A DNA stretch of 64,000 bases from an uncultured Hyphomicrobium sp. (GTDB taxonomy: Bacteria; Pseudomonadota; Alphaproteobacteria; Rhizobiales; Hyphomicrobiaceae): the NCBI GenBank assembly GCA_934555825.1, contig CAKTFJ010000003.1:62001-126000 (forward strand), read 5' to 3'. Numbering within the stretch: position 1 is the stretch's first letter; every line of letters starts with the position of its first letter. This document shows positions 16,143 through 61,765 of the stretch, in pieces. Both the position numbers and the translations under genes were made by a program. The notes beneath the pieces were generated by a model. It made no database searches. It saw nothing but the letters and a program-made list of their open reading frames with translations, and was not told where the DNA came from.

Positions 16143-16179
16143 ATAATGGCAGACATCACATAATAGGAATGGAGACGAC

Positions 16180-16829: not shown

Positions 16830-16854
16830 GGAACTTCCGTTTCTGTCGCGTGTT
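16830..16854 (+). promoter_or_regulatory. EcfG-like stress promoter upstream of small membrane protein
   Basis: GGAAC (16830-16834), 16 bp, then TGTT (16851-16854) is close to the alphaproteobacterial general stress consensus GGAAC-N16/17-CGTT. The -10 box lies 58 bp upstream of the 25-aa ORF at 16912, with no other plus-strand gene before the terminator at 17058. Confidence 0.6.
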
Positions 16855-16911
16855 GAACGGACACGCGGGCCATGGGCCCGTTAATCGCGACGACAGGAAA
16901 TCGGATCTCCC

Positions 16912-16989
16912 ATGCGTTATATCCTTCTGTGGGCTCTTGGAGTGCCGGCATCGGTTTTGATTCTGCTTGCGCTGTTCGGCTGGATCTGA
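16912..16989 (+). CDS. 25-residue single-helix membrane protein
   Basis: An ATG at 16912 opens a 25-codon frame ending TGA. It begins MRYILLWALGVPASVLIL and continues to FGWI. It is a single hydrophobic helix with almost no soluble part and resembles the tiny LLWALGVP-type membrane peptides found in many proteobacteria. The frame is bracketed by an EcfG-like promoter and a strong terminator, so it is very likely the product of its own short transcript. The ribosome binding site is weak (AGGAAAT, about 10 bp upstream). The function of this type is unknown. Confidence 0.65.
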   Translation: MRYILLWALGVPASVLILLALFGWI

Positions 16990-17057
16990 ACGAGCGCCAG
17001 AATAAGAAACGAAATAAGAAAAGCGTCTCCTACTCCGCGCTTCACAGCGTCTTCACG

Positions 17058-17087
17058 CCGGCCCCGAGGGCCGGTTTCTTTTTTTTT
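17058..17087 (+). terminator. Strong intrinsic terminator
   Basis: CCGGCCC-CGA-GGGCCGG forms a perfect 7-bp stem, followed by TTTC and a run of nine T. It ends the transcript of the small membrane protein and any read-through from the FixJ-type regulator. Confidence 0.92.
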
Positions 17088-17143
17088 GGCAATATGCAAA
17101 AGCGCTGCGTCAGGCTCGTGCGCGGGGAGGGGACGAAGAAAGT

Positions 17144-17650
17144 TCAATGCAGCGCTGCGTATTCTGTATGTGAGATCGCAGCATCATTCGGATCCTCGGT
17201 ATAGGCAAGTTCGGAAAGCGCGCTCGCTTGCACCAGCTCCTCCGCGATGCTGCGGCGGATGTCGGGGATCACTTCATCGAGCTGCAATTGCTCGGACCAC
17301 CGCAGCAGCGACTCATACAGAGTGATCTCGTAACGCTTAAGAGCGAGCAGCGCGGCGGCGCATCCCTGGGTGCCGCCTTCGAGGCGGTTCGCGTTCGCCT
17401 CCCATGCATCTCTGAGAAGCGCGGTCGCGACCCAGGAAGCTTCCGTGCGGGGATCGAGATAGAAGACAGTGAACATGCGTTCGATACGCAAAACCTGCTC
17501 TTCAGACTGTCGGAGAATTTGCGACAGCGTAGCGATCAGACGAACATCTGCGACGCTCCCCGAAATGAGCGAACGCGACGCCACGATCTGCCGTTCCGTA
17601 TCGTAAATCTGCCGCAACGTGCGCATGTAGACGCGCTCGAACTTCCGCAT
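17144..17650 (-). CDS. DUF892 (YciE/YciF-type) ferritin-like protein
   Basis: The protein has 168 aa and is all-helical. It contains the DUF892 pattern of two ferritin-like helix pairs: YMRTLRQIYDTERQIV near the N-terminus, LRQSEEQVLRIERMF in the middle and YESLLRWSEQLQLDEV near the C-terminus. Glu and His candidates for a di-metal site are partly present. Related proteins are induced by osmotic, desiccation or general stress. The ATG at 17650 is the first in frame. A perfect EcfG-like promoter lies 38 bp upstream, which fits a general stress role. The gene is monocistronic and convergent with the small membrane protein. Confidence 0.8.
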   Translation of the reverse strand: MRKFERVYMRTLRQIYDTERQIVASRSLISGSVADVRLIATLSQILRQSEEQVLRIERMFTVFYLDPRTEASWVATALLRDAWEANANRLEGGTQGCAAALLALKRYEITLYESLLRWSEQLQLDEVIPDIRRSIAEELVQASALSELAYTEDPNDAAISHTEYAALH

Positions 17651-17687
17651 GGCTGCTAAGACCTGTTCCGCATTCGCCGATGAGGAT

Positions 17688-17712
17688 AACGCAGGTGCGA
17701 AATGGAGGTTCC
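17688..17712 (-). promoter_or_regulatory. Perfect EcfG-type promoter of the DUF892 gene
   Basis: Read on the minus strand: GGAAC, 16 bp, CGTT. This matches the general stress consensus of Alphaproteobacteria exactly. The -10 element ends 37 bp before the ATG of the DUF892 gene. Confidence 0.8.
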
Positions 17713-17734
17713 AAAGCGGGGAGCGGGCCAGCGC

Positions 17735-18871
17735 CTACTTGCGCTTCCGCCGCGTGGTAAACCGCGCGTTTCCAAGACCGGTTCCGATGGTGAGGACGGC
17801 CCAGCGATCGTAGTCGCTCATGAAGGGCAACGCGCTGAGACCTTGCACGACGGCATCGTTGTGCATGACGACAGCCGTGTCGTGCTTTCCGATCTCGGGG
17901 ATGGCCGTCCTCAGGCTCTCGGCGAGGTTGAAACTCTTCGTTTCCCAGTTGCCGGGCAGGTTCTGCGCGCCTGTTTCGATAGCGCCGTCGTCGCGAATAA
18001 GCCCGGGGCAGCCGACGCCGATGACAGGGGCGAGCTTAAGCTTGTCCTTCCCGGCGATCTTGATGAGATCCTGAAGCATGTCGACGAGACGGTCGACGGC
18101 TTCGTCGCGCTTCGTCTTCTCGTCCCCGTGGCGCCAAAGCTCTGATTTCCAAACCTTCGCTTTGTCCAGCGTTTTGGATTTCTTCAGATTGGTCTCCACC
18201 ACGCCGGCGCGGATGTTCGTGCCGCCGATGTCGACGGCGAGAAGCCCGTCGAATCCTTCGAGCGTCCAGGCCGGCATGAGGTGGGCCGCGCCCACGAGCC
18301 CCGCTTCGTCCGGATGATGGCGGATAAGTTCGAGCTCGATGTCTTTGCCGCCTGCCTTGAGCAGGATCTCCGTACGTCCCACGGCGAGTGCGCCGATGCG
18401 GCTGTCGGAGAAACCGCCGCCCACAACGATCGCTTCCGTCGCCCGCCAGCTTGCGGACTTGAGAAAACGCCGAATGACGTGATCGAGCTCTTTGGAGAAG
18501 GCTTCGATGGCGCTGTGGATCAGGCCGCCCGCCTCCGGATCGCCTTCCGCAAGCAACTCGTCGAGCTTTTTCTTGCTAATCTCTTCGGTCGCTTCGTCGC
18601 CGAGCGGATCGGCGCCAAGCTTGCGCAGGGGCTCGCGCCATTCGTCCATGATGGCAGTGAACGCGCTTCGGCTCGCGCGATCCCCGACGAACCCCTCTTC
18701 GTCGCGGATCTCGAGATTATAGCTGTCCACTTCCACGCTGGGCAGGACTTTGGCGCCGTGTTGGGTGATGACGGGCAATCGCGGTATCCATGGGAATGTG
18801 AAAGGGAGGAGGCCCGCGGCGTGACGGCCGCAGATCCTAGAGCTTCCGTGAAACGCGGATCCCCCGTCCAA
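17735..18871 (-). CDS. ROK-family protein with circularly permuted motif order
   Basis: The protein has 378 aa from TTG 18871; a TTG at 18778 is an alternative start. ROK kinases normally begin with the phosphate-binding DxGGT motif and end with a GGG adenosine region. Here the order is reversed. IVVGGGFSDS (149-157) and HPDEAGLVGAA (186-196) come first, then VDIGGTNIRAG (213-223), GVGCPG (285-290), MHNDAVVQG (336-344) and TIGTGLGNARF (361-371). The usual ROK zinc motif (CGxxGCxE) is missing. It is probably a sugar or sugar-like kinase; the substrate is unknown. The start codon is uncertain. The gene ends 22 bp upstream of the DUF892 promoter region. Confidence 0.75.
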   Translation of the reverse strand: MDGGSAFHGSSRICGRHAAGLLPFTFPWIPRLPVITQHGAKVLPSVEVDSYNLEIRDEEGFVGDRASRSAFTAIMDEWREPLRKLGADPLGDEATEEISKKKLDELLAEGDPEAGGLIHSAIEAFSKELDHVIRRFLKSASWRATEAIVVGGGFSDSRIGALAVGRTEILLKAGGKDIELELIRHHPDEAGLVGAAHLMPAWTLEGFDGLLAVDIGGTNIRAGVVETNLKKSKTLDKAKVWKSELWRHGDEKTKRDEAVDRLVDMLQDLIKIAGKDKLKLAPVIGVGCPGLIRDDGAIETGAQNLPGNWETKSFNLAESLRTAIPEIGKHDTAVVMHNDAVVQGLSALPFMSDYDRWAVLTIGTGLGNARFTTRRKRK

Positions 18872-19051
18872 AGATCGGGGCAGTACGAAATATTTTTTTC
18901 GCTAAGCCGACGGCGCGCGACGCCGCCAGGCCAGCTAAGTAGAGATACGTGCGGTGCCGCGCCGCAGCATGAGTCATGCTTTCGTCGATATTGCAAGGCA
19001 TGGAGCCCTTTGATCGAAAAAGGAATTCCCGCAGAAGAAGACGAGGTTCCG

Positions 19052-20416
19052 ATGCGGACGACGGCGTGCGCGTTTCTATTCAACCGGGCGGTGGCAATAG
19101 TCCTGATGGGGGGCGCGCTGAATTCGGGCGCGGCAATCGCGGGAGGCACGGGCGGCTGTGAGGCCGTCAATAGCGGCGCTCTCGATCTTTCCGTCGCGGC
19201 CGGGCGAAGCGGCGCGCGCGATGCAAGCCTCGATCAAGGCGACATGCTTGCGATCACAATCTCGACCGAAGCGACGGCAGCGCTGTCGGTCGATAGCGTG
19301 TCGGACGGCGCTGAGACGCTGCATTCAGGCCCCGCATCGTCGGTATTGTTCGTCGCGCCGCGCACAGACGCCTACGGCTTCCAGATTTCCGCCGACAGCG
19401 GATCCGGCGCGCGGCTGCGCGTGACGTGCACATCGGCGGCTCATGCGAGAGCCGAACGTAGGCTTAAGGATCGCCGCAAGGCCTTCCTTGCCGCGCGTGA
19501 TCCCGATCGCATGCGCATCGATCGCCCGCGCGGCGAGTTCAATCCCTTCGGCGAAACGGGCCTCTCCGGCGCGCCGGAAGACGGGCCGCCGCGCGACATC
19601 ACCGGCTCCTTCAGCCTGTCGGAGCTGACAGCCGCGATGAACCCCGATCAGAAGAGCGAACAAGGAATTCTCGATTTCTGGTTTGAGGGGCGGCATCTCC
19701 AGTACGACACCGTCGATCTGAATGCGCGCGCGACCGACGGCAATTTGATGGTCATGTATTTCGGCACCAAATACATGCTGGGACCTGACATCATGCTAGG
19801 CACCGTCGCGCAGTTCGATCAGGCGGTCGAAGGGGCGGGCGTATCGGCGCGTGGCTGGATGGCGGGACCATATGTCAGCATCCGCTTCGGCCACGGCATC
19901 GTGTTCGATGGGCGAGCGGCCTGGGGCACGGCCGACGGCCTCCCGCGCGGCATCATGCTCGATACCGCATCGGCCGATCGGCGCCTGATGCGTGGCACGC
20001 TTCGCGGTACGCGTCCCGTCGCAGGCTGGACGTTCTCGCCCAGCGTTGGACTGTCGTATGCCGACGATACCCCGGAATTTCAGGGCACGGCCACGTCTCG
20101 CGCAGTTGCGTCGGGAGGGAGTGGCCGGCTCGATTTCCTGCCGGAGGTGAAGCGCCGTTTCACGCTCGACAGCGAGACGTACCTAGAGCCGCGTTTCGCT
20201 GCCGGCGGGTTTCTCGCTTTCGAGGATTTCTCGGAGATCACGCCCGGCAGCGTGACGGCGCATCCCGATTTGCACTGGAAGGCCGAGGCGGGCGTCGCGC
20301 TGGGCAAGAAAGACAGCATGAGCCTCGAGGCAAAGGGCGGCGTTGAAACCGGCGGCCAAACGGGCACCGATACGTGGTCCGGCCGGCTACAACTCAACAT
20401 GCCGCTCGGCAAATAA
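19052..20416 (+). CDS. Exported protein with autotransporter-type beta-barrel C-terminus
   Basis: The protein has 454 aa from ATG 19052. The frame is open further upstream, but that part is antisense to the ROK gene. A signal peptide (about residues 1-33, ending AAIAG) is followed by a 140-residue N-terminal domain with two cysteines, then an Arg-rich segment. From about residue 185 amphipathic strands run to the end, with repeated aromatic-Gly patterns (GRHLQYDTVDLNARATDG, MVMYFGTKYML, RFGHGIVFDGRAAWG). The C-terminus is RLQLNMPLGK. This fits an outer-membrane autotransporter-like barrel, but the passenger is unusually short. A role in surface structure is only an inference. Confidence 0.7.
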   Translation: MRTTACAFLFNRAVAIVLMGGALNSGAAIAGGTGGCEAVNSGALDLSVAAGRSGARDASLDQGDMLAITISTEATAALSVDSVSDGAETLHSGPASSVLFVAPRTDAYGFQISADSGSGARLRVTCTSAAHARAERRLKDRRKAFLAARDPDRMRIDRPRGEFNPFGETGLSGAPEDGPPRDITGSFSLSELTAAMNPDQKSEQGILDFWFEGRHLQYDTVDLNARATDGNLMVMYFGTKYMLGPDIMLGTVAQFDQAVEGAGVSARGWMAGPYVSIRFGHGIVFDGRAAWGTADGLPRGIMLDTASADRRLMRGTLRGTRPVAGWTFSPSVGLSYADDTPEFQGTATSRAVASGGSGRLDFLPEVKRRFTLDSETYLEPRFAAGGFLAFEDFSEITPGSVTAHPDLHWKAEAGVALGKKDSMSLEAKGGVETGGQTGTDTWSGRLQLNMPLGK

Positions 20417-20474
20417 GGGGCTTAAAAGCCCGGCTGTTCTCGTTTCCCACGAAAGCTGGCCCGCGAAAAAGTGC

Positions 20475-20499
20475 GGAACCTTTGTCCCGTCCGTGCATT
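20475..20499 (+). promoter_or_regulatory. Weak EcfG-like promoter before the poly-HAMP kinase
   Basis: GGAAC (20475-20479), 16 bp, then CATT (20496-20499). The -35 box is perfect, but the -10 differs from CGTT at one position. It lies 33 bp upstream of the GTG start. Confidence 0.35.
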
Positions 20500-20531
20500 A
20501 CCCCCGGTCTGGGTAGCGTGTGGAGGGAAGC

Positions 20532-23500
20532 GTGCTTAGTCGAGAGGGCGCGAGCGAAGGAGAAGTCCTGCGCTCGGTTCTTGCTGCTTTGAAGGCCCTG
20601 GGAGACGGGGACAAATCCATCAGGCTTCCGCAAAGTTGGACGGGACTTGCAGGCGAAGTTGCCGAGGCATTCAATGCTATCGCCATTGCCGAAGCGTCGC
20701 CCCTGCCATCGGACGCGTCACTCGGCGTGCGGAATGGAATACGTGTGCGCCCTCTCAGAGCCGCCCACAGTGGCAATGGCTCGTCCGGCCGCGCACGCAT
20801 CCTTTCGACCGATCAGGCAACCGCGCTTCTCGCGGGCCTGCGCGCCGTAAAACAGGGCGACGAGACCGCACGTCTTCCAATCGATTGGCCGGATCTCGCC
20901 GGCCGTATCGCCGAGACGTTCAATGACGTTGTCCAATTAAACGGCGAACTGCAAAAAGAACTCAAACGTCTCAGCAGGGTCGCGGGCAAAGAGGGTCGAC
21001 TGAGAGAGCGCGCACGTCCCGTCGCCATGTCCGGGTTTTGGATGTCGTCGATTGAATCCGTGAATGCGCTTGTTGAGGATCTCGTGCGCCCGACGCGAGA
21101 AGTCGCGCGCGTGATCGGCGCGGTTGCGCAGGGCGATCTGACGAAATCCATGGCGCTCGAAGTGGACGGCCGCGCGCTCGAAGGCGAATCTCTTCGCACT
21201 GCGCGCACGATCAACACCATGGTCGATCAGCTCCGCTCGTTTGCAGCCGAGGTGACGCGCGTGGCCCGCGAGGTGGGCACGGAAGGCAAGCTCGGCGGCC
21301 AGGCCGACGTGCAGGGCGTCTCGGGCACATGGCGCGACCTCACGGACAGCGTGAACTCGATGGCCGGCAACCTGACGGCCCAGGTGCGCAACATCGCCGA
21401 GGTGACGACGGCTGTTGCACGCGGTGATCTTTCGAAAAAGATCACGGTCGACGTGAAGGGCGAACTGTTGGAACTGAAGAGCACCATCAACACGATGGTG
21501 GACCAGCTCTCGTCGTTCGCGTCGGAGGTGACGCGCGTCGCGCGCGAGGTGGGCACGGAAGGAAAGCTCGGCGGCGAGGCCGACGTGCAGGGCGTCTCCG
21601 GCACATGGCGCGACCTTACCGAGAACGTGAACTCGATGGCCGGCAACCTGACGGCACAGGTCCGCAATATCGCCGAGGTGACGACGGCGGTCGCACGCGG
21701 CGATCTCTCGAAGAAGATCACGGTCGACGTGAAGGGCGAGCTTCTGGAGCTGAAGAGCACCATCAACACGATGGTGGATCAGCTCTCGTCGTTCGCGTCG
21801 GAGGTGACGCGCGTCGCGCGCGAGGTGGGCACCGAAGGCAAGCTCGGCGGTCAGGCAGACGTGCAGGGCGTCGCGGGCACCTGGAAGGATCTCACCGACA
21901 GCGTGAACTCGATGGCCGGCAACCTCACCGGCCAGGTTCGCAACATCGCAGACGTGACGACGGCGGTGGCGCGCGGCGATCTCTCGAAGAAGATCACGGT
22001 CGACGTGAAGGGCGAGATCCTGGAGCTGAAGAACACCATCAACACGATGGTGGATCAGCTTTCGTCGTTCGCGTCCGAAGTGACGCGTGTCGCGCGCGAA
22101 GTGGGTACGGACGGAAAACTTGGCGGCCAGGCCGCCGTGCCAGGCGTGGCCGGCACCTGGAAAACGCTGACGGACAGCGTGAACTCGATGGCCGGCAATC
22201 TGACCGACCAGGTGCGCAACATCGCAGACGTGACCACCGCCGTGGCGCGCGGCGATCTCTCGAAAAAGATCACGGTCGACGTGAAAGGCGAGATCCTGGA
22301 GCTGAAGGCGACCATCAACACGATGGTGGATCAGCTCCGGTCGTTCGCGGCTGAGGTGACGCGCGTTGCACGCGAGGTGGGCACGGAAGGAAAGCTCGGC
22401 GGACAGGCCGACGTGCCGGGCGTCGCAGGAACGTGGAAGACACTGACCGACTCTGTGAACTCGATGGCCGGCAATCTGACGGACCAGGTGCGCAACATCG
22501 CGGACGTGACGACGGCGGTCGCCATGGGCGATCTCTCCAAAAAGATCACGGTCGACGTGAAGGGCGAGATCCTCGAGCTGAAAGGCACCATCAACACGAT
22601 GGTGGATCAGCTTCGCTCGTTCGCGGCTGAGGTGACGCGCGTCGCGCGCGAGGTGGGCACCGAGGGCAAGCTCGGCGGTCAGGCTGACGTGCAGGGTGTT
22701 GCCGGAACCTGGCGCGATCTCACCGAGAACGTGAACTCGATGGCCGGAAATCTGACGGACCAGGTGCGCAACATCGCCGAGGTGACGAAGGCCGTCGCCG
22801 CGGGCGACCTGTCGCGCAAAATTACGGTCGACGTGAAGGGCGAGATCCTGGAGCTGAAGGCGACCATCAACACGATGGTGGACCAGCTCCGCTCGTTCGC
22901 GGCTGAGGTGACGCGCGTCGCGCGCGAGGTGGGCACCGAGGGCAAGCTCGGCGGCCAGGCCGACGTGCCGGGCGTCGCCGGAACGTGGAAGGACCTCACC
23001 GACAGCGTGAACTCCATGGCCGGCAACCTGACGGCCCAGGTGCGCGGTATTGCGCGCGTCGTGACCGCGGTGGCGAACGGCGACCTGAAACACAAGCTGA
23101 CCGTGGAGGCCAAGGGCGAGATCGCATCTCTCGCCGACACGATCAACGGTATGACCGAGACGCTGGCGATCTTCGCCGATCAGGTGACGACGGTTGCCCG
23201 TGAAGTGGGCGTAGAAGGCCAGCTTGGCGGACAGGCGAAGGTGCCGGGCGCCGCGGGCACGTGGAAGGCGCTGACCGAGAACGTGAACCAGCTCGCGGCG
23301 AACCTCACGACGCAGGTGCGCGCCATTGCCGAAGTCGCGACGGCCGTGACCAAAGGCGACCTGACGCGCTCGATCGCCGTCGGCGCCGAGGGCGAGGTCG
23401 CCGCCCTGAAAGACACCATCAACGAGATGATCCGCAATCTGCGCGACACGACGCAGAAGAACAACGAGCAGAACTGGCTGAAAACGAACCTCGCCAAATT

Positions 23501-25454
23501 CTCGCGGATGCTGCAGGGTCAGGAGGACCTCAACGCTGTCGGGCAGATGATCCTGTCGGATCTTGCGCCTGTTGTCGGCGCTCATCAGGCCGAGATCTAC
23601 GTTTACGGCGGCGCGGCGTCACGCCCCTATTTGACGCTGCTCGCGAGCTATGCGGCGGATGGCGAGCGGACCCACGGCAAAGTCGTGGAGCTGGGTGCAG
23701 GCCTCGTCGGCCAGTGCGCACAGGATAAGCGGCGCATCATGCTGGAGGATGTCTGCGCAGGCCCGATCCGCATTGCGACCGGCCTTGTCGAAGCTCCGCC
23801 CGTTAACGTGCTCGTGCTTCCCATCGTGTTCGAAGGCGCCGTGAAGGGCGTACTCGAGCTTGCCTCTCTCGAACGCTTCAACTCTGTGCACCACGACTTT
23901 CTCGATCAGCTCACCGAAAGCATCGGCCTCGTCATCAATACGATCGAGGCCAACATGCGCACCGAGGATCTGCTCGCCCAGTCCCAGTCGCTCGCCAAGG
24001 AGCTGCAGCAGACCAACGCCGAGTTGCAGGAAAAGGCGCGTCTGCTCGCCTACCAGAACCAGGAAGTGGAGCGCAAGAACACGGAAGTGGAGCAGGCCCG
24101 CCAGGATCTGGAGGAAAAAGCCGATCAGCTCGCGCGCACGTCGAAATACAAGTCCGAATTTCTGGCCAACATGTCCCATGAGCTTCGGACGCCGCTCAAC
24201 AGTCTCCTGATCCTCTCCGACCAGCTCTGCCAGAACCGTGACGGAAATCTGACCGAGCGTCAGGTGGAATTCTCAAAGACGATCCACGCGTCGGGCAACG
24301 ACCTGCTCACGCTGATCAACGACATCCTCGACCTCGCCAAGATCGAGTCCGGAACAGTAGCCGTGGATGTGGTCGAGCTGCGCTTCGACGACCTCTACCA
24401 TTACGTAAACCGCACCTTCCGCCACATTGCCGAACAGAAAAATCTGGATTTCGAGGTGACGATCGATCCGCGCTTGCCGGCGACCATCGTGACAGACGCA
24501 AAACGCTTGCAGCAGATCCTGCAGAACCTGCTCTCGAATGCGTTTAAGTTCACCAAGCAGGGCGAGGTCGCGCTCACCGTGGAGTTGGCGGAAGAGGGAT
24601 GGCATCCCGATACGGTCGAGCTTTCTCAGGCGCCCGCCGTCGTCGCCTTTGTCGTCAGCGATACGGGCATCGGCATTTCCGAGGACAAGCAGGGCATCAT
24701 CTTCGAAGCGTTTCAGCAGGCGGACGGCTCCACCAGCCGCAAGTACGGTGGAACGGGCCTCGGCCTCGCCATCAGCCGCGAGCTGTCGCGCCTGCTCGGG
24801 GGCGAAATCAGGCTCGTCTCGTCGCTCGGGCAAGGATCGAGCTTCGCGCTTTACCTGCCGCTCAACTACGCACCGCCCCGCGCAACGCGCCGCCCGTCAG
24901 GCGGAACCGCTGCGTTGGATCGCGATCAGCCGGAGAGCGACGGCGGAAGTGTGGACGAGAGTGCAGGCGTCGGCAGCTCCGAGCCGGCTGCGCGGCCTCG
25001 CGGAGAGAAGACCGAACTCACGTCGGTTGCGCGCTACCTCACGCCGCCGCGGGAGATCTCCGCAGCTCTGACGACGGCACTCACGGGCAAGAAAGTTCTG
25101 ATCGTAGACGACGACGCACGGAATATTTTCGCGCTTGCCGCCGTTCTGGAAGATCATGGTATGGACGTGCTGTCGGCGGGAAGCGGGCGTGACGCATTGA
25201 AAATCATGTCGGAGAGCCCCGGATTGGACATCGTCCTGATGGACATCATGATGCCCGATATGGATGGCATGGCCACGATCCGCGCGGCCCGGGAGATTCC
25301 AGCGTGTCAGGATCTCCCGATCATCGCCGTCACGGCCAAGGCGCTGAAGGGGGATCGGGAGCGCTGCATAGAGGCCGGAGCGTGGGATTATCTCGCCAAA
25401 CCTGTCGATTCCAGCCACCTGCTGACTGTCATGCAGTCGTGGCTCTATCGCTGA
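20532..25454 (+). CDS. Poly-HAMP hybrid histidine kinase (group III-like)
   Basis: The protein has 1640 aa from GTG 20532, which has GGAGG 5 bp upstream; GTG 20520 is less likely. It has no membrane helix, so it is cytoplasmic. An N-terminal region of about 200 residues is followed by 17 alternating HAMP units (residues about 190-970) in a 92-residue period: nine GDL-type and eight VAREVG-type. Next come a GAF domain (about 985-1140), a coiled coil, HisKA ([11 protein letters not shown], His 1216), HATPase (GTGLGLAIS) and a receiver with [11 protein letters not shown] (Asp 1571). The layout matches fungal group III osmosensing kinases and their bacterial relatives. A receiver-HRXXN kinase gene follows after 25 bp. 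Confidence 0.9.
21211..23418 (+). repeat. Tandem 276-bp repeats encoding HAMP pairs
   Basis: Eight consecutive 276-bp units (starting at 21211, 21487, 21763, 22039, 22315, 22591, 22867 and 23143) encode the alternating HAMP pairs. The first seven are very similar at DNA level; the eighth is more diverged. Such a tract can change copy number by recombination and may be collapsed in short-read assemblies. Confidence 0.9.
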
Positions 25455-25479
25455 CCGGAGACTGACGAAGGTCGCCATC

Positions 25480-26625
25480 ATGAGCAATCCCGTGCCAGCC
25501 GATATTCTGATCGTTGACGATCTTCCGGAAAAGCATCTCGCCTATCGCGCGAGCCTGGAGGAGCTGAACCAGAACGTCGTGACCGTCACGTCAGGCGAAG
25601 AGGCGCTGAGGCTGCTGCTCGAACGGGACTTTGCCGTCATTCTGCTCGACGTGAACATGCCAGGCATGGGCGGACATGAGACGGCAGCGCTGATCCGCCA
25701 GCGCCGCAAGTCGCGTCACACGCCGATCATCTTCATCACGGCCTTCGCCGACGACGTGCAGGCCGCCGAAGGCTATGCGCTAGGCGCCGTCGACTACATC
25801 CTCTCGCCCGTCGTGCCGGAGATCCTGCGCGCCAAGGTCAAGGTTTTCGTTGATCTCCACACCATGCGCAGCGAACTCGCCCGCTCTCACGCGCTGCTCG
25901 AAGAGCGCGTCGAGGAGCGCACGGCCGAGCTTGAACGCACAGCGGAGGTGCTGAAGGTCGAGGTAAAGGAGCGCAAGCGCGCCGAAGAGCGCCTGTCGAT
26001 CCTGGTCAGCGAGCTGACGCACCGCGTGAAGAACCTGCTCGCGGTGCTGCAATCGATCACGAGCCGCACACTGAGCGATAGCCGCGACGTTGCTGAAGCC
26101 CGCGGAATTTTGCTCGGACGCCTGCACGCGCTCGCGCACGCGCATGAGCTTCTGACGGAAGCCTGTTGGAAGGGCGCAGGACTCGCCGACATCGTCGATG
26201 CAGAGGTGGCAGGCTTCTCGGATCGTGTGCAGGCAGCAGGTCCCGACGTGTTCCTCACCGCATCTGCCGTGCAGACGTTCGCGCTCGTCGTGCACGAGCT
26301 GGCGACCAACGCCGCAAAGTATGGTGCGCTCGTCACGACCGATGGCAGCATCAAAATTTGGTGGGACATCATGGACGACGCGGATGGCGAGCGTCATCTC
26401 GTGTTTCGATGGAAGGAGACGGGCGGACCGCCCGTCGTGCCTGCAACACGCAAGGGCTTCGGCCTGACGCTGATCGACACGCTGGCCAGCACGCTGACGT
26501 CGGAGCCGAAAGTCGATTTCGCGCACGATGGTTTAGCGTGCGCTCTGAAAGTGCCGCTCAATATCATTGCCGTCGAGGAAGCATCGGATTTCGTATTGCC
26601 GATGAGGAAGGTCGCCGCGAGCTGA
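25480..26625 (+). CDS. Receiver-HRXXN (HWE-type) histidine kinase
   Basis: The protein has 381 aa. A receiver domain (about 8-125) has phospho-acceptor D57 in ILLDVNMPGMGG. The conserved lysine near the end is replaced by serine: DYILSPV instead of the usual KP. A coiled coil (about 135-172) leads to the HWE/HisKA_2 kinase with LTHRVKNLLAVLQ (His 181, HRXXN signature) and HELATNAAKYGAL, then RKGFGLTLI in the ATP lid. HRXXN kinases often feed the alphaproteobacterial general stress response through PhyR. It lies 25 bp after the poly-HAMP kinase, so the two probably form one signalling unit, with this receiver as a possible phospho-target. Confidence 0.87.
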   Translation: MSNPVPADILIVDDLPEKHLAYRASLEELNQNVVTVTSGEEALRLLLERDFAVILLDVNMPGMGGHETAALIRQRRKSRHTPIIFITAFADDVQAAEGYALGAVDYILSPVVPEILRAKVKVFVDLHTMRSELARSHALLEERVEERTAELERTAEVLKVEVKERKRAEERLSILVSELTHRVKNLLAVLQSITSRTLSDSRDVAEARGILLGRLHALAHAHELLTEACWKGAGLADIVDAEVAGFSDRVQAAGPDVFLTASAVQTFALVVHELATNAAKYGALVTTDGSIKIWWDIMDDADGERHLVFRWKETGGPPVVPATRKGFGLTLIDTLASTLTSEPKVDFAHDGLACALKVPLNIIAVEEASDFVLPMRKVAAS

Positions 26626-26638
26626 CGCGCGGGCGGCG

Positions 26639-27091
26639 TCAGGGAAGGCGTTGATCGGGCGGCAGTGGGCTCGCGTGCGGATCGTGCATGGTGGCTTGGG
26701 CAATCGCTTCACGGGACAGCGACGTCTGCACCGTCATCTGATCCCCGTCACCGGCCGTGATTACCAGATGACGCAATGCGATGGGCACCGGCCGTTCGCC
26801 GATGCCGAGAAAGCCGCCAATTCCGACAATCACGGCGGCAACTTTGCCGTCCGGCTCGATAACGATGTCGTTGACCGTGCCGACCGACTGGTTGAGAGCC
26901 GTCGTCACCGTCTGCCCGATGAGTTGGCTGGCGCGCCACGCGCCCTGCACCGGCGTCCCGGGCTGCGCAGATTGTGCTTCGGGCGGCGGAGCGTCCGCCG
27001 GACCGGGCGGCACCTGCGCCAACGCGGGCGAAAACGCCAGGGAGGCCATAAGCGGCAATGATGCCAGGCCGAGTGGTTTGATGAGGGTCAT
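26639..27091 (-). CDS. Exported PRC-barrel domain protein
   Basis: The protein has 150 aa. A signal peptide (about 1-25, ending ALAQ) and a Pro/Ala-rich linker precede one PRC-barrel domain (about residues 52-125) with WRASQLIGQTV, GTVNDIVIEPDG and VIVGIGGFLGIGERPV. Periplasmic PRC-barrel proteins are common in Hyphomicrobiales, often stress-induced, and of unknown activity. The gene is convergent with the HRXXN kinase, with only 13 bp between their stops. An EcfG-like promoter with exact boxes sits 70 bp upstream. It is a paralog of the protein at 34888, which shares the GGFLGIGE motif. Confidence 0.85.
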   Translation of the reverse strand: MTLIKPLGLASLPLMASLAFSPALAQVPPGPADAPPPEAQSAQPGTPVQGAWRASQLIGQTVTTALNQSVGTVNDIVIEPDGKVAAVIVGIGGFLGIGERPVPIALRHLVITAGDGDQMTVQTSLSREAIAQATMHDPHASPLPPDQRLP

Positions 27092-27160
27092 GGGCGACCT
27101 CTACGGATGATCGGATGGGGCCGTGACCGATGACGGCGGCTGACGAGGGTTCATAGAGAA

Positions 27161-27186
27161 AACGGGGTTGACCGCACGATGGTTCC
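27161..27186 (-). promoter_or_regulatory. EcfG-type promoter of the PRC-barrel gene
   Basis: On the minus strand: GGAAC, 17 bp, CGTT, within the accepted spacing for EcfG. It lies between the matrixin stop (27194) and the PRC-barrel start (27091), so the PRC-barrel gene can be switched on separately from the protease gene. Confidence 0.75.
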
Positions 27187-28275: not shown

Positions 28276-29133
28276 CTAGGGGAGAGAGCGGAGCTTCCCA
28301 GGAGCTGAGAACCGATGGGACAACTGGTCGAGCCACGTCATGACGGCGCTCGGCCCGGAAAAATCGGCAATGTCCGGGTGATACTGCTCGCCCGCCACGC
28401 GCAGGCCGAAACCGTTGAGATCTTCCGCCACCGCGAACGCGGCTTCGTCGCCCACGTCGTCGCCGATCATGATCGGAATGCGATTGCGAAACGCGGGCAG
28501 CGAGGCGAGCTTCGCAAGCGCCGTACCCTTGGAGAGTCCCGACGGGATGACCTCGAAGATTTTTTTGCCCGGCACCAGTTCGAGCGCGCCCGCGTGCCGC
28601 TCGATAGCAGCGGTGAGGGCGGCCAGAATTTCGCTCTCGGCTTCTGGTGCGAGCCGGTAGTGCAGAGCGAGGCCACCACCCTTTGGTTCGGCGATCACGC
28701 CCGGAATATCGAGCGAGAGTTTGCGCATCGTCTGAACGATTTCGTCGGGAAGGCTCGCCGTAACGCGCTCGATTTCCAGGTCCGGCTCAAGACGCATCTC
28801 TGCGCCATGCACGCCGGCCGCGGCTAGCCGGAGAGGGGAAAGCAGGTGGTCGATGTCCGAGATGAGCCGCCCGGTGACGATAGCCATCGCGCCGTCGAGG
28901 CCGAGTGCGAGCCGCTGCAAAAGCGCAATGAGACCTTCCGGCACGATGACGGCTTCAGGTGTGTCGGCGAGTTCGATCAGCGTGCCGTCAACGTCGAGAA
29001 AGAGGGCGTACCGTCGGGGGTTCGAGAGCACGAAATCGGTGCACGTGGCGAGCCGCGACGTCATGTCGGGAATTCTGTCGGCGGCGGTCGATCTCTGCTT
29101 CAAAGTGTGCTCCGTGCCCGTTTTGAAGGCCAT
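28276..29133 (-). CDS. otsB: Trehalose-6-phosphate phosphatase
   Basis: The protein has 285 aa and belongs to the HAD superfamily. Motif I is YALFLDVDGTLIE (around residue 42), motif II lies in AIVTGR, and the acidic motif is IMIGDDVGDEAAF near residue 222. The length fits OtsB. It removes phosphate from trehalose-6-phosphate to give trehalose, an osmoprotectant. ATG 29133 is used; ATG 29064 (MTSRL) would also leave the whole HAD domain intact and neither has a clear ribosome binding site. It is the last gene of the minus-strand order GH15-otsA-pfkB-otsB, 132 bp after the kinase gene. Confidence 0.9.
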   Translation of the reverse strand: MAFKTGTEHTLKQRSTAADRIPDMTSRLATCTDFVLSNPRRYALFLDVDGTLIELADTPEAVIVPEGLIALLQRLALGLDGAMAIVTGRLISDIDHLLSPLRLAAAGVHGAEMRLEPDLEIERVTASLPDEIVQTMRKLSLDIPGVIAEPKGGGLALHYRLAPEAESEILAALTAAIERHAGALELVPGKKIFEVIPSGLSKGTALAKLASLPAFRNRIPIMIGDDVGDEAAFAVAEDLNGFGLRVAGEQYHPDIADFSGPSAVMTWLDQLSHRFSAPGKLRSLP

Positions 29134-29265: not shown

Positions 29266-30360
29266 TCATAGCCTCCAGCTTATCACATTTGGTGTCTCAA
29301 TCTTTCCGTCGAGGGCTGCGTCGATTTCGCGGCGCTGCATGAGGCCGGTCGTCGTGTCGACATGACCGAGCACCGCCGCCGCGTTCAGCGTCGCTGCCTG
29401 GAGGGCGCGGTCGGGCGTGCTCCCGATGGCGGTTTCCGCTGCGAAGGTGGATGCGAAGGCATCGCCCGCGCCCGCCGTTCCCAGCACCGTCACCGCGCGC
29501 GCCGGACAGTGATAAAGCCCTCCGCGGGAAGCTGCGAACGCGCCGTTCTGCCCGTCGGTCACCAGAACCGTACCGACGCCGCGCCCGAGAAGGGCTCGCA
29601 TGAAGGCGGTGAGCGGAACCTTGCGCCCTTCGTGCCGGAACCCACGGATTGCGAGCGCAGGCGGCGACATCCCTTCGGGAAACGCCAGCGGCGCTCCATC
29701 TTTGGTTTCGTCCTTTTCCAGCATGGACACGACTTCGTCGGCTTCGCGCCGGTTGAGGGAGAGAATGTCGAGTGCCGGCAGCGTGCCCTGAAAGGCACCG
29801 GCGTGGGCATGCAGTTGGCGGATGCCTGGATTGGCCGCAATCAGCGCGCGCGCCTTCTGCGCCTTCTCGACAATCTCAGGGAAGCACTGCGCCGCCTGGT
29901 CGGAAAGGTTGGCGATGTAGACGAGATCGACGGCGAAGGCCTCGTCCGTCAGGTCGCCCGGCACGAGCAGCGTATTGGCGCCTCGGAACGTGAACACAGC
30001 TGCGTTACGGTCATGCGACGAGACGTGGACCGATGCGCCTGTCGGCGCGCCGGGATCTCGAAGCGCCCATCGGTGCGAGATGTGATCTCTGTCGAGGGCG
30101 GCGAGGATCTGTTCCGCGCGGCCATCGGCGCCGAGCTTGATCAGAACGGAGGTGTCGAGCCCGAGGCGGGCGAACGCGACCGCCGCATTGATGCCTCCGC
30201 CGCCCGCGTGCGTCGAAACTTCGAGTGCTTCTGTCTTTCCGCCCTCTTCGAGCAGCAGGAACGACGTTCCCGCGTTCAGCATGCTCATGCGCTCGATGCC
30301 GGAGTTCTCGATGATCGCGATGGTATCGACCATCGCGCCGCCGATCGTGAGCGCTTTCAT
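29266..30360 (-). CDS. PfkB-family carbohydrate kinase
   Basis: The protein has 364 aa from ATG 30360. The frame extends further upstream, but that part overlaps otsA. The start overlaps the otsA stop as ATGA (30360-30357), which decides the start. Family motifs are present: GGGGINAAVAFARLG near the N-terminus and GTAGAGDAFAS near the C-terminus, carrying the catalytic Asp. It phosphorylates a sugar or nucleoside of unknown identity. Translational coupling to otsA and the nearby trehalose genes suggest a substrate linked to trehalose or glucose turnover. A ribokinase- or adenosine kinase-like activity is equally possible from sequence. Confidence 0.82.
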   Translation of the reverse strand: MKALTIGGAMVDTIAIIENSGIERMSMLNAGTSFLLLEEGGKTEALEVSTHAGGGGINAAVAFARLGLDTSVLIKLGADGRAEQILAALDRDHISHRWALRDPGAPTGASVHVSSHDRNAAVFTFRGANTLLVPGDLTDEAFAVDLVYIANLSDQAAQCFPEIVEKAQKARALIAANPGIRQLHAHAGAFQGTLPALDILSLNRREADEVVSMLEKDETKDGAPLAFPEGMSPPALAIRGFRHEGRKVPLTAFMRALLGRGVGTVLVTDGQNGAFAASRGGLYHCPARAVTVLGTAGAGDAFASTFAAETAIGSTPDRALQAATLNAAAVLGHVDTTTGLMQRREIDAALDGKIETPNVISWRL

Positions 30361-31886
30361 GACCGCCCGCCCGGGCGTTTTCGCGAGGCGGCCTTGAGTT
30401 CGGCTGCGGACTTTGCATCGGCATCGTTCGCGGGCAGGCCCGACGAGCGGCGCGCGGCCTCGGCAAGCTTGGCAAGCGCCGCATGAATGGGCGTGCTGGC
30501 CGAGATGCGCGCGGTCGAACGTTCTTCTGCAGACGCTTCCAGCGTCGCGAGAAACGAAGCCGACCACACCGCAGAATCGTAGGTGCGAATGACGCTCATT
30601 AGCCGCTCGTAGCGGGTGATGCGCTCCGCCTTATCCATTTCGAGAGCCTGCTTGATGGCGTCGGCCATCTCTTCGACGTTGTAGGGATTGACGATGATCG
30701 CATCGACGAGCTGTTCGGCCGCGCCTGCGAAGCGCGAAAGGATCGGCACGCCCGGATCGTCGGGCGCCTGCGCCGCAACATACTCCTTGGCGACAAGATT
30801 CATGCCGTCGCGCAGCGGCGTAAAGAAGCCGATGCGCGAAGCACGATAGATGTCGCGCAGACGGTCGCGCGGCGCGGAGCGGTGGATGTAGTGGATGGGC
30901 ACCCAGTCGAGTTCGCCGAACATGCCGTTGATTTTTCCGGACAGCGCTTCGAGCTGCTGGCGGATGTCCGTATACGCTTCCACGCTTTCGCGCGTCGGCG
31001 GTGCAATCTGGGTGAGCACGACTTTACGAAGATACTCGGGATACTTTTCGAGAAAGCGGCCGAATGCCCTTAGTTTCTGAGGAAGGCCCTTGGTGTAATC
31101 GAGCCGATCGACGCCGATGAGCCTTTGGGCGTCCGACGGCGACTGCACGAGATTCCGGACGGGCGTAGCCCCCATGAAATCGCGTGCGTCGATTCCCACG
31201 GGAAAGCGGTGGATGGAAAGCCGCTGGTCGAATGCAAGCACGCGCCCGTCCTGCAGGATGCGCCCTTGCCCGCTGTCTTTGAAAACCTGGATCAGGTTCG
31301 AGACATCCGCTTCCGTCTGCAGTCCGACGAGATCGTAGGCGGCAAGCGCTTGCGCTAGATCCGCGTACTCCGGAATTGCGAGGAACGTTTGCGGAGGCGG
31401 CACCGGAATATGCAGATAGAATCCGATCGGGTTTTGGATGCCGAGCCGGCGCAGCTCCACCGCGAGCGGGATCAGATGATAATCGTGCACCCACACGATG
31501 TCGTCCGGCTGGATGAGAGACGCGAGCGCGGCTGCGAACCGCTTGTTGACGCCCATGTAGCGCGGATAGAATCCGGCATCGAAATGGGCGAGGTCGAGCC
31601 GGTTGTGAAACACCGGCCACAGCACCGAGTTGGAATAGCCGAGATAGTAGTCGCGGTGTTCCTCGGCTGTGAGCGGGAGCGTGGCGAGCGCGCTTTGCCC
31701 CGCCGCCTTGCGGACCTTGATATCGGAGAGACCCGCGTCGTCTTCCTCGACGACCTTGCCGTTCCAGCCAAACCACAAACCAGGTTTCGCCTTGAGGAGG
31801 TCGGCGATGGCGACTGCGACCCCGCCCGCCTGGGTGGCGCGTCTCAGCTCCATCACACGATTGGACACGACGACGATGCGACTCAA
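30357..31886 (-). CDS. otsA: Trehalose-6-phosphate synthase
   Basis: The protein has about 509 aa and is a GT20 family glycosyltransferase. It begins SRIVVVSNRV, as typical OtsA proteins do. Conserved motifs include WVHDYHLIPLA, GFYLHIPVPP, GVDRLDYTKGLPQK and DGMNLVAKEYVAAQ. It joins UDP-glucose and glucose-6-phosphate to trehalose-6-phosphate. The start is set at TTG 31886, preceded by GCGGAGG with good spacing; TTG 31910 is possible but has no site. A tail of about 50 residues rich in Ala/Ser/Arg follows the catalytic core. The stop overlaps the start of the PfkB kinase gene. Confidence 0.93.
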   Translation of the reverse strand: MSRIVVVSNRVMELRRATQAGGVAVAIADLLKAKPGLWFGWNGKVVEEDDAGLSDIKVRKAAGQSALATLPLTAEEHRDYYLGYSNSVLWPVFHNRLDLAHFDAGFYPRYMGVNKRFAAALASLIQPDDIVWVHDYHLIPLAVELRRLGIQNPIGFYLHIPVPPPQTFLAIPEYADLAQALAAYDLVGLQTEADVSNLIQVFKDSGQGRILQDGRVLAFDQRLSIHRFPVGIDARDFMGATPVRNLVQSPSDAQRLIGVDRLDYTKGLPQKLRAFGRFLEKYPEYLRKVVLTQIAPPTRESVEAYTDIRQQLEALSGKINGMFGELDWVPIHYIHRSAPRDRLRDIYRASRIGFFTPLRDGMNLVAKEYVAAQAPDDPGVPILSRFAGAAEQLVDAIIVNPYNVEEMADAIKQALEMDKAERITRYERLMSVIRTYDSAVWSASFLATLEASAEERSTARISASTPIHAALAKLAEAARRSSGLPANDADAKSAAELKAASRKRPGGRS

Positions 31887-31972: not shown

Positions 31973-33805
31973 TCAAACGCTTGAGGTCGCCCCCGGTTCC
32001 GGCGCGGTATCGCGGGGCCAGGCATCTGCCCAGTTTCGCGAGAGGTTCATGCAGGAATTGACGATGCCGGCCATGGAATAGGTCTGCGGCAGGTTGCCCC
32101 AGAGTTGCCCCGTCTCGGGATGAATGTCCTCCGACAGAATACCGAACGCGTTGCGCCGCGAGAGAAGCTCGTCGAGGAGAACGCGTGCTTCATCCACGCG
32201 TCCCGCGGCCGTGAGCGCATCGATGTACCAGAACTGGCACGCGAGAAACGACGTCTCCGGCGCACCGAAGTCGTCGTTGGTATAGCGGAGCATGAAACCG
32301 TTGCGGCCGAGTTCTCGCCCGATGACGTCAAGCGTCTTCGTGAAGCGCGGATCCTTCGGCGAGATCAGCCCGAGCTCTGGAAGCAGCAGGACGCTGGCAT
32401 CGAGTTCGTCGAGATCGAGAGCGCCCGCAAACGCGCCGAGTTTCTCGCTCCAACCCCGCGTCAGGATCTCGCGCCGCACCCGATCCGCCTGCGTTCTCCA
32501 TTGATCGGCATCGCCTTGCAGCCCCAGCAGTGCCGCGATGCGCGCGAGCCGGTCGAGCGCGACCCAGCACATGGTTGCTGAGTGCGTGTGAATTCGCGAG
32601 CGTCCGCGATATTCCCAGATGCCCGCATCGGGCTCTAGAAAAACACGTAACGCATGGTGTCCGAGAATTTCGAGCCGTCTGTAAAGCGCTTCGTCGCCCA
32701 TGCGCGGCAGACGCTGGTCGATGAACATCTGCGAAACGCCGAGAATGATGCTGCCGCAGGAATCGTGCTGGATCTGCTCGGCGGCCTGATTGCCGACGCG
32801 CACCGGACCCATGCCGAGGAATCCGTCGAGGTTCTCGGCCACGCTCTCCGTCAGCGGCTGGTCGTGCACGATGCCGTAAACCGGGCGCAGCGCACCTTTG
32901 GAGTCGATGGCCAGCGTCGTGATGTAATCGAGATACGATTCCATCGTCTGCGTCGCGCCGAGCCGGTTGAGCGCCATGATGACGAAATACGCGTCGCGCA
33001 GCCAGCAGTAGCGGTAGTCCCAGTTGCGCTGCGTGAAGGGCGCCTCGGGAACGGAGGTCGTGTGCGCCGCGACGATGGCGCCTGTCTCGTCGAAATTGCA
33101 GAGCTGAAGCGTAATCGCGGCGCGGATGACGTCGCTCTGCCAATCGAGCGGGACAGCAAGCCCGCGCACCCAGCCGAGCCAGTATTCCCGCGTGCGCTCC
33201 AGGGCCTCGCGCGAGACGGTATCGGCCGCGGCTTCGAGCGACTCGTCGGGTCCGAACACCAGCGTTACCGGCCGCCCAAGTGCAAACGAGGTCTCGTGTA
33301 CGATGTAGGAGAGGGGCGCGTCGGTCGTGAGCCGCAGCGTAATCTCGCCGCCGCTGTAGCGGATATGGTTGGAGCCCACCACCTGCGCGGCGCGCGGTTC
33401 GCCGTAGTTGAAGGTTGGGCGCACGCGAATTTTCACGCGCGGCAGCCCGATGGGCTCGATGCGTCGGATCACCTGCGCGGGGTGCAGCATCCGCTCGAAG
33501 CGGGGGTAGCGGGGCGCGAAGTCGATAATGCGCACGCCGTTTCCTGCATCGTCCTCGATGACGGTTTCGACGATGGCGGTGTTGCGCAAGTATGCTGAGC
33601 GCGTACGCACCGCACCTTCGACGATGACATCCGTGAAGCCTTTTTCCTCGTCGCCCGCGAGCATGCGCGAGAAGACCGGATCGCCGTCGAAGCGCGGGAA
33701 GCACCACCAGACGATGCGGGCCGAACGATCGAGCAGGGCGGCGATACGACCGTTGCCGATGATCGCGTAGTCGAGCGGTTGCGGGGCATGGGTGTTGCTG
33801 ATCAT
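31973..33805 (-). CDS. Glycoside hydrolase family 15 protein (trehalase/glucoamylase type)
   Basis: The protein has about 610 aa from ATG 33805 (MISNTHAPQ); ATG 33835 is an alternative. The N-terminal beta-sandwich begins with DYAIIGNGRIAALLDRSARI, and the (alpha/alpha)6 catalytic barrel contains WDYRYCWLRDA and the later WIDALTAAGRVDEAR. This is the usual bacterial GH15 form linked to otsA. It may hydrolyse trehalose or alpha-glucans. Its position as the first gene of GH15-otsA-pfkB-otsB suggests control of the trehalose pool. The gap to otsA is 86 bp. No signal peptide is seen, so it is probably cytoplasmic. Confidence 0.85.
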   Translation of the reverse strand: MISNTHAPQPLDYAIIGNGRIAALLDRSARIVWWCFPRFDGDPVFSRMLAGDEEKGFTDVIVEGAVRTRSAYLRNTAIVETVIEDDAGNGVRIIDFAPRYPRFERMLHPAQVIRRIEPIGLPRVKIRVRPTFNYGEPRAAQVVGSNHIRYSGGEITLRLTTDAPLSYIVHETSFALGRPVTLVFGPDESLEAAADTVSREALERTREYWLGWVRGLAVPLDWQSDVIRAAITLQLCNFDETGAIVAAHTTSVPEAPFTQRNWDYRYCWLRDAYFVIMALNRLGATQTMESYLDYITTLAIDSKGALRPVYGIVHDQPLTESVAENLDGFLGMGPVRVGNQAAEQIQHDSCGSIILGVSQMFIDQRLPRMGDEALYRRLEILGHHALRVFLEPDAGIWEYRGRSRIHTHSATMCWVALDRLARIAALLGLQGDADQWRTQADRVRREILTRGWSEKLGAFAGALDLDELDASVLLLPELGLISPKDPRFTKTLDVIGRELGRNGFMLRYTNDDFGAPETSFLACQFWYIDALTAAGRVDEARVLLDELLSRRNAFGILSEDIHPETGQLWGNLPQTYSMAGIVNSCMNLSRNWADAWPRDTAPEPGATSSV

Positions 33806-34172: not shown

Positions 34173-34532
34173 TTAGTATTGGCTGGGTGAGCCTTCAGGG
34201 GCAGGCAGGGTGTCGCTACCCTGAACACCGTCGCCAGCGCCGGTCGCGGAGCTGTCGTGCACGAGTCCCTGGTCGCATGCGGCCATGAACTCCATGCTGG
34301 TGAGAGCGCCGTCGCCGTCCGTATCCGCCGCAGCGAAATTGGACACGTAGCGGTCCGCGTCGGCGGCCGACAGTTTACCCGAGCCAGCGGCATCGGCGCG
34401 GTTCCAGATCGTCTGACACTCAGCCTGAGACAATTGCATTTCCGCTTCCGCAGGCGCATCGGCCTGCGCGAAGGCGGTGCCTCCAGTGGCGATAAGGAGT
34501 GCCGCTATGCTCGCAGTGCACAGCTTTTTCAT
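34173..34532 (-). CDS. Small exported EF-hand protein
   Basis: The protein has 119 aa. ATG 34532 is preceded by AAGGAGGACATC, an excellent ribosome binding site; the longer frame upstream lacks one. A signal peptide (about 1-22, ending AFAQ) precedes a helical domain with two EF-hand-like loops. The first, DAAGSGKLSAAD, is degenerate; the second, DTDGDGALTSME, is canonical and should bind Ca2+. Two cysteines (AECQT and AACDQ) could form a disulfide. Periplasmic calvin-like proteins of this size are common in Hyphomicrobiales. A near-match EcfG promoter lies upstream. It is divergent from a PRC-barrel gene. Confidence 0.85.
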   Translation of the reverse strand: MKKLCTASIAALLIATGGTAFAQADAPAEAEMQLSQAECQTIWNRADAAGSGKLSAADADRYVSNFAAADTDGDGALTSMEFMAACDQGLVHDSSATGAGDGVQGSDTLPAPEGSPSQY

Positions 34533-61740: not shown

Positions 61741-61765
61741 GGAACCGCGCTTTCCCTCAGGCGTT
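61741..61765 (+). promoter_or_regulatory. Perfect EcfG-type promoter before a 116-aa protein gene
   Basis: GGAAC (61741-61745), 16 bp, CGTT (61762-61765) match the alphaproteobacterial general stress consensus exactly. The -10 ends 64 bp upstream of the ATG at 61830. Confidence 0.78.

Follow-up and report, generated by a model that had tools for sequence, protein, structure and literature searches.

We report that a block of genes in a stretch of DNA from an uncultured Hyphomicrobium sp. (64,000 nucleotides (nt) of contig CAKTFJ010000003.1, hereafter the window) very probably belongs to the general stress response regulon of an alphaproteobacterium resembling Hyphomicrobium, its genes being preceded by promoters of the type recognised by the sigma factor EcfG. 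The genes so preceded include those for a DUF892 protein, two PRC-barrel proteins, an EF-hand-like protein and the trehalose-6-phosphate synthase OtsA, as well as an open reading frame (ORF) of 25 codons whose product belongs to a family of hydrophobic miniproteins. The spacer specificity of the sites in the closest genome found, their persistence ahead of orthologous genes, and the occurrence of NepR, EcfG and PhyR in the genomes of the genus together strongly support this reading, which an earlier note on this DNA had proposed.

In the established pathway, HRXXN histidine kinases are thought to phosphorylate PhyR under stress, and PhyR binds NepR, freeing sigma-EcfG. We posit that the same chain would operate here: under stress, HRXXN kinases would phosphorylate PhyR, which would bind NepR, and RNA polymerase with the freed sigma-EcfG would transcribe, from promoters of the GGAAC-N16/17-CGTT type, the genes for the 25-amino-acid miniprotein, the DUF892, PRC-barrel and EF-hand-like proteins, the otsA-pfkB-otsB genes and a 116-amino-acid protein. 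Two kinases encoded in the block, one of the poly-HAMP and one of the receiver-HRXXN type, may feed PhyR; a degenerate conserved site may place them under EcfG as well.

EcfG-type sites ahead of the block genes

The strict motif GGAAC-N16/17-YGTT has seven matches in the window, six of which lie 5' of a gene on the correct strand; the seventh (17572, minus strand), which the earlier note did not mention, sits inside the DUF892 gene. Together with two variants, the sites ahead of genes are:

16830..16854 (+): GGAAC-N16-TGTT, 57 nt 5' of the start of the 25-codon ORF
17688..17712 (-): GGAAC-N16-CGTT, 37 nt 5' of the start of the DUF892 gene
20475..20499 (+): GGAAC-N16-CATT, a weak site ahead of the poly-HAMP kinase gene
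27161..27186 (-): GGAAC-N17-CGTT, 69 nt 5' of the start of PRC-barrel gene 1 (PRC1)
31976..32000 (-): GGAAC-N16-CGTT, ahead of otsA, within the last codons of the GH15 glycosidase gene
34606..34630 (-): GGTT variant, ahead of the EF-hand-like gene
34739..34763 (+): GGAAC-N16-CGTT, ahead of PRC-barrel gene 2 (PRC2)
61741..61765 (+): GGAAC-N16-CGTT, ahead of the gene for the 116-amino-acid protein

The three sites from which the earlier note had argued (25-codon ORF, DUF892 and the first PRC-barrel gene) are thus present on the right strands, as is its weak site at the poly-HAMP kinase; its list lacked the sites of otsA, PRC2, the EF-hand-like gene and the 116-amino-acid protein, and its extent of about 10 kb proved too narrow, the cluster running on to about 35 kb. 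The -10 box reads CGTT at DUF892, PRC1, otsA, PRC2 and the gene at 61830, and GGTT at the EF-hand-like gene, while the TGTT of the 25-codon ORF and the CATT of the poly-HAMP kinase deviate from the strict (C/G)GTT form. GGAAC and (C/G)GTT boxes set 16-17 nt apart ahead of a gene are the sequence by which EcfG-type promoters are recognised, and, these two apart, the window promoters have it; the forms given in passages of the literature are GAAC-N16,17-C/GGTT (PMC4814048) and GGAAC-N17-20-GTT (PMC6599016).

G004, the closest genome found (a single contig, 3,653,837 bases), is 93%, 97% and 93% identical to the window in the DUF892, OtsA and PRC1 proteins, and was hence taken as a stand-in for the window's genome. 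In 1.6 Mb of it, with the block left out and genes called by a codon-usage model, 1,465 upstream regions were scanned for GGAAC-Nk-CGTT on the gene strand. The matches peak only at spacers of 16 and 17 nt, with 12 at each, and the remaining 34 spacers (5 to 40) have 37 in total, or about 1.1 each; the 24 matches at the two favoured spacers thus stand against about 2.2 expected, and about one in ten of these upstream matches should therefore be due to chance. No excess is seen in the coding DNA of the same sample (24 at N16 and N17 together versus 23.8 expected). Enrichment across the genome, ahead of genes and at the right spacer only, is a mark of EcfG-type promoters, and it is found here. 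G004 has 95 CGTT sites in all, five of them inside the 17-kb syntenic block (Poisson 7e-6, for a region picked after the fact). A second tight group of five GGAAC-CGTT sites lies at G004:C1:877894-883434, near another DUF892 gene at 880884; hence, clustering of such sites is not peculiar to this block.

For footprinting, best-match orthologs of five block genes were taken from up to nine other genomes, with synteny checked for part of them and the paralogs PRC1 and PRC2 sorted by match score; their 200 bp upstream were set against those of eleven neighbouring genes, five truncated control regions being omitted. A site is kept in 31 of 33 orthologs versus 1 of 65 controls, or, without the near-identical G004, in 26 of 28 versus 1 of 54 (by gene: DUF892 6/6, PRC1 6/6, otsA 7/8, the EF-hand-like gene 4/4, PRC2 8/9). 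The sole control with a site is pfkB in G006, preceded there by a site at the GH15 end, and the OtsA-like match found in that genome is merely distant (28%). Both boxes are kept across orthologs while the sequence of the spacer, and even its length, changes (N16 or N17 in the DUF892 orthologs), and the four EF-hand-like orthologs have CGTT at the position that matches the GGTT of the window. As the end of the GH15 gene overlaps the otsA site, selection on the protein may also help to conserve that site; in G006 both boxes are unchanged and the codons that separate them are altered. A site also precedes the DNA-level counterpart of the 61830 gene in G004, where the 63% match is an out-of-frame reading that shows similarity of the DNA alone. 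Conservation of this kind ahead of orthologs is what EcfG-type promoters would be expected to show.

NepR is found in all eight genomes of the genus, with EcfG and PhyR homologs at those loci in every case. In G004, nepR, ecfG, phyR and the gene for a single-domain receiver are grouped together; NepR (PF18557), the extracytoplasmic function (ECF) sigma factor (NF009199) and PhyR (NF006623) score above the Pfam and NCBIfam cut-offs, and a site of this kind precedes phyR by 65 nt. Homologs of these genes, together with GGAAC-N16/17-[CGT]GTT sites, are also found at the phyR/nepR loci of G001 and G005-G010.

Several observations weigh against the EcfG-promoter reading. The opposite strand of the G004 upstream regions is raised as well (eight at N16 and four at N17, 12 together); many of these regions lie between divergent genes, which may explain it. 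The loose motif GGAACN{15,18}GTT occurs nine times in the window against a mean of 5.6, with 10 of 100 shuffles reaching nine. Whole-genome totals for the eight genus genomes are mildly enriched (721 versus 589 for the reversed motif), and that of G009 lies under its control (74 versus 82); it is therefore the position of a site that matters. As the loose window counts and the whole-genome counts are too blunt, the upstream-only spacer test and the orthologs were used instead. The window's own site for the 25-codon ORF has TGTT in place of CGTT, the otsA ortholog in G003 and the PRC2 ortholog in G006 have no site within 200 bp, and the strict site is absent ahead of 38 of 81 miniprotein homologs, including 23 of the 61 in NepR-positive genomes. 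Finally, the PhyR, NepR and EcfG of the window's organism are deduced from its relatives.

The non-significant loose count, along with the strict match inside a gene, would suit the view that GC-rich DNA has produced the sites by chance and that their cluster is an artefact of reading. To this we assign a negligible probability, given that the enrichment is spacer-specific and seen upstream of genes only, that orthologs and not controls keep the sites, and that the sites survive change in spacer sequence and length; the spacer test and the footprint refute chance for the set, and individual sites could be silent. That the promoters are real and read by one or more different ECF factors whose -35 box is of the GGAAC type, the block then not being specifically a PhyR-NepR-EcfG regulon, we consider quite improbable. 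AAC-containing -35 boxes are common to ECF factors, and three genomes with no NepR match still have a site ahead of the miniprotein. On the other side stand the same motif ahead of phyR in G004, the sites in the phyR/nepR loci of its relatives, and the greater frequency of miniprotein sites where NepR is present: 38 of 61 homologs with NepR above the cut-off, two of three with a weak NepR and three of 17 with none (38/61 versus 3/17, Fisher 0.0019, uncorrected for related genomes).

The genes behind these sites, with those between otsA and otsB, are:

17144..17650 (-): DUF892 protein (PF05974, E 1.8e-15), which we take to be a YciE/YciF-type stress protein
26639..27091 (-): PRC-barrel protein 1 (PF05239), N-terminus signal-peptide-like by eye
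28276..29133 (-): otsB, trehalose-6-phosphate phosphatase (PF02358, E 1.7e-28)
29266..30360 (-): PfkB-family sugar kinase (PF00294), between otsA and otsB
30357..31886 (-): otsA, trehalose-6-phosphate synthase (PF00982, E 5.8e-115), start from the codon-usage gene call
34173..34532 (-): EF-hand-like protein, signal-peptide-like start by eye; matched by four Pfam models for EF-hands (E 2e-5 to 5.8e-5), each under its curated cut-off
34888..35403 (+): PRC-barrel protein 2 (PF05239 in frame), N-terminus signal-peptide-like by eye, start from the codon-usage gene call
61830..62180 (+): 116-amino-acid protein, function not assigned, start at 61830 by eye and 61860 in the gene call; no match in Pfam or NCBIfam

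Both enzymes of the OtsAB pathway, synthase and phosphatase, are thus matched in the window. A GH15 glycosidase gene (31973-33805) with a trehalase-like N-terminal domain adjoins otsA, with which it could form a unit of trehalose or glycan turnover. With no site at any of them, the genes for the MASE1 histidine kinase, the FixJ-like regulator, ROK, autotransporter-like, M10, OtsB, GH15 and DLDH proteins, the gene at 36926 and the receiver-HRXXN kinase gene were rejected as direct EcfG targets. Between M10 and otsB a further GGAACTC...ACTACGTT site, directed away from M10, occurs in G001 (L001 6273-6298, plus strand) and G005 (G005:C319 9011-9036, minus strand); the corresponding gap in the window is 185 bp long and contains no strict match.

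A family of hydrophobic miniproteins

The small gene at the left end of the block comprises two elements besides its site:

16912..16989 (+): unannotated ORF for a 25-amino-acid hydrophobic miniprotein, MRYILLWALGVPASVLILLALFGWI, probably a single-helix membrane protein
17058..17084 (+): terminator-like GC hairpin with a T-run after the ORF

In all six genomes with a syntenic FixJ gene (window included), the ORF is exactly 25 codons long with no indels, a GGAAC-N16/17-NGTT site stands upstream of it, and a terminator-like hairpin follows, with a poor T-run in G006. A MASE1-sensor histidine kinase and a FixJ-like regulator are encoded upstream of it (14508-16791) and adjoin it in all five relatives compared; neither gene has such a site in any of five orthologs.

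A small transcription unit bounded by a promoter and a terminator of its own resembles a small RNA gene, and RpoE2 promoters have been described ahead of small RNAs in S. meliloti (PMC3616915); the conserved unit might accordingly be thought a stress-induced small RNA or a leader with a terminator, and not a protein gene. The pattern of change, along with the fixed length, argues for a protein: pairwise differences at codon positions 1, 2 and 3 number 100, 37 and 189 (over non-independent pairs), codon differences over all pairs are 137 synonymous versus 93 non-synonymous, and the hydrophobic consensus of the peptide is maintained over the order, class and phylum samples. We therefore hold the RNA reading to be extremely improbable.

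A profile built from five sequences recovers the family in 60 of 297 genomes of the order at E<=0.05, where the weak end may include chance matches, and a profile of 20 sequences (A2) in 59 of 385 genomes of the class at E<=0.01 and 61 of 398 of the phylum at E<=0.001. The consensus, MRxILLWxLGVPIxVIILLxLF, in which L6, W7, G10 and P12 are invariant in the 20 sequences, reads by eye as a single hydrophobic helix, basic at its N-terminus and kinked at Gly-Val-Pro. None of six family members matches Pfam at E<=1, and NCBIfam yields none above cut-off, with a single sub-threshold hit (15.6 of 23 bits).

Of 59 distinct order and class loci, 33 have a site within 200 bp; its spacer is N16 in 23 of them and N17 in 10, and none of the remaining lengths between 6 and 40 occurs more than once. 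By sample, the site is found ahead of 23/30 homologs in the order, 10/29 in the class and 13/26 in the phylum (10/22 minus four duplicates), that is, ahead of 43 of the 81 homologs read once duplicate loci are removed. Another, weaker match (E 4.9e-4) occurs in G004, where a GGAAC-CGTT site ends 40 nt short of the stretch matched. Of 80 genomes with both genes, 17 have the miniprotein no more than 20 kb from a NepR match, 15 of these within 8 kb (the NepR of G450 being below cut-off), and in G020 an ORF that looks by eye like phyR ends about 1.1 kb from a miniprotein copy.

In plasmids, a tblastn search with one family query listed only rows with E of 2 or more, three of which (E 2 to 7) were read and accepted on the visible consensus and a start-to-stop frame; two other family queries gave no match there, probably due to the low-complexity filter. 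All three accepted cases have a site, at 28-33 nt. On pSymB of S. meliloti R11 (L360 2501-2575), an unannotated 24-amino-acid family ORF follows exoT and is preceded, at 32 nt, by a site of the RpoE2 type; in S. terangae no feature is annotated under the match, in a record with one feature in total; and in Paracoccus ferrooxidans a longer called ORF encloses it. The same search also listed matches in E. coli and Salmonella, at E about 4.

The S. meliloti protein SEP6, described in passages of PMC10117765 as shorter than 30 amino acids, with a predicted membrane helix, conserved in Hyphomicrobiales, present in the P100 fraction and supported by Ribo-seq and Western blot, could be the same protein, as compared by description only; the word RpoE2 is absent from the main text of that paper. 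A literal-peptide search of paper texts, with supplementary tables outside its reach, found no family peptide. Small membrane proteins such as CydX, KdpF and MgtS have one hydrophobic helix in 20-40 residues and often partner a larger membrane complex; by description, the miniprotein resembles them in its one-helix build, its consensus being without a Pfam match.

Most likely, the miniprotein is a single-helix protein, induced by stress, that would insert in the inner membrane and bind a membrane protein or tune the envelope. NepR was not found in 9/58 and 23/53 genomes carrying the family, which weighs against a PhyR-only role; a general membrane role, put under EcfG in alphaproteobacteria, is therefore the likelier of the two. 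Of the phylum genomes with the miniprotein, 30 of 53 have NepR, versus 1 of 27 class genomes that lack the miniprotein; the negatives are mostly small and unmatched, so that we rest nothing on the comparison. A bolder and, in our estimate, doubtful proposal is that this miniprotein of about 23-27 residues is a core, unnamed general stress product of alphaproteobacteria and exerts feedback on the pathway or on its membrane partners, for instance by binding a membrane HRXXN kinase, a phosphotransferase or a transporter and so setting the strength of the response. Its EcfG-type promoter, the proximity of nepR in some genomes and the copy beside a phyR-like gene favour such feedback. The promoters are well supported and of an ordinary type; what deserves to be followed up is the miniprotein.

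The poly-HAMP and receiver-HRXXN kinases

Two kinase genes stand in tandem between the DUF892 and PRC1 genes:

20520..25454 (+): poly-HAMP hybrid histidine kinase with HAMP repeats, GAF, HisKA, HATPase and receiver domains, start 20520 or 20532
25480..26625 (+): receiver-HRXXN (HWE) histidine kinase (PF00072; PF07536, E 1.9e-21), 25 nt past the poly-HAMP gene

Pfam finds eight HAMP and nine HAMP_2 stretches, HisKA, HATPase_c and Response_reg in the first, which agrees with the definition of group III kinases by at least five HAMP domains, HisKA, HATPase and a receiver. It shares this architecture with fungal Nik1 and myxobacterial AskA/AskB, from which it differs in its GAF domain and in the receiver-HRXXN kinase gene downstream. 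Weak SpoIIID and HTH_6 Pfam overlaps are seen in it, resembling those described for AskA/AskB in part of PMC7643160.

The H-box of the second kinase reads HRVKN, in the window as in five relatives (L250-L254), and the kinase is hence of the HRXXN type, as the earlier note had it. It shares the HRXXN box and the HWE/HisKA_2 family with the HWE/HRXXN kinases that serve the general stress response, Paks among them (passages of PMC5898713); unlike these, it has a receiver ahead of the kinase domain and adjoins the poly-HAMP gene, and its transfer to PhyR is putative. Its best match (82%) belongs to a Hyphomicrobium sp.; next come an uncultured Rhizobiales and a further Hyphomicrobium, at 63-64%. 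Its receiver (25480-25860) keeps the Asp and has Ser in place of the conserved beta5 Lys, while its relatives at phyR loci have degenerate receivers in which the Asp motif was not found. A receiver-HRXXN kinase is present at the phyR locus in six of the eight genus genomes (G001, G005, G007-G010) and absent there in G004 and G006.

The weak site ahead of the poly-HAMP gene recurs at the same place in relatives, as CATT in G004 and as CGTT in G008, and may be a weak real promoter; if so, the kinase pair would be under the very response that it may feed. The pair is present in the block in three of eight genus genomes, close orthologs of the second kinase being found in G001, G004 and G008. Since the promoter-bearing genes persist without the pair, it is an optional attachment; the earlier idea of a local stress regulon with its own sensors is only partly supported.

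It is a real possibility, if one on the weaker side of even, that the pair forms a separate phosphorelay, for osmosensing or chemosensing, which landed beside the stress genes and sends no signal to PhyR. Its presence in a minority of the genus genomes, the absence of a site ahead of the receiver-HRXXN gene (0/4 orthologs) and the Ser at the beta5 position would fit such a relay. Signalling to PhyR is favoured by the HRXXN type of the kinase, by its grouping with the HRXXN kinases of phyR loci in a tree (96/96 support, with four outgroup rows, three of them long-branched), and by its retention in G004, whose phyR locus is without that kinase.

Relation to known regulons and significance

The regulons of PhyR-NepR-EcfG in Methylobacterium, Sphingomonas and Bradyrhizobium, and of RpoE2 in Sinorhizobium, have the same promoter form and include trehalose and PRC-barrel targets; passages of the respective papers report a PRC-barrel gene as EcfG-dependent in Sphingomonas (PMC6599016) and otsA/otsB as being under EcfG control in Bradyrhizobium (PMC8092242). 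The window is distinguished from these by the grouping of several targets in about 18 kb, the optional pair of poly-HAMP and HRXXN kinases, and a target of only 25 codons. Our literature search found no paper on an EcfG regulon in Hyphomicrobium; in the one paper found with Hyphomicrobium, the general stress response and EcfG together, the genus name occurs once, in a reference. The promoter cluster would extend the known stress regulon to Hyphomicrobium and link trehalose synthesis to it there.

ORFs of 25 codons are commonly skipped by gene finders, and a widespread stress gene may therefore be absent from the regulon lists obtained by microarray or RNA-seq. The recognisable promoter offers a ready means of finding the miniprotein gene in genomes with EcfG.

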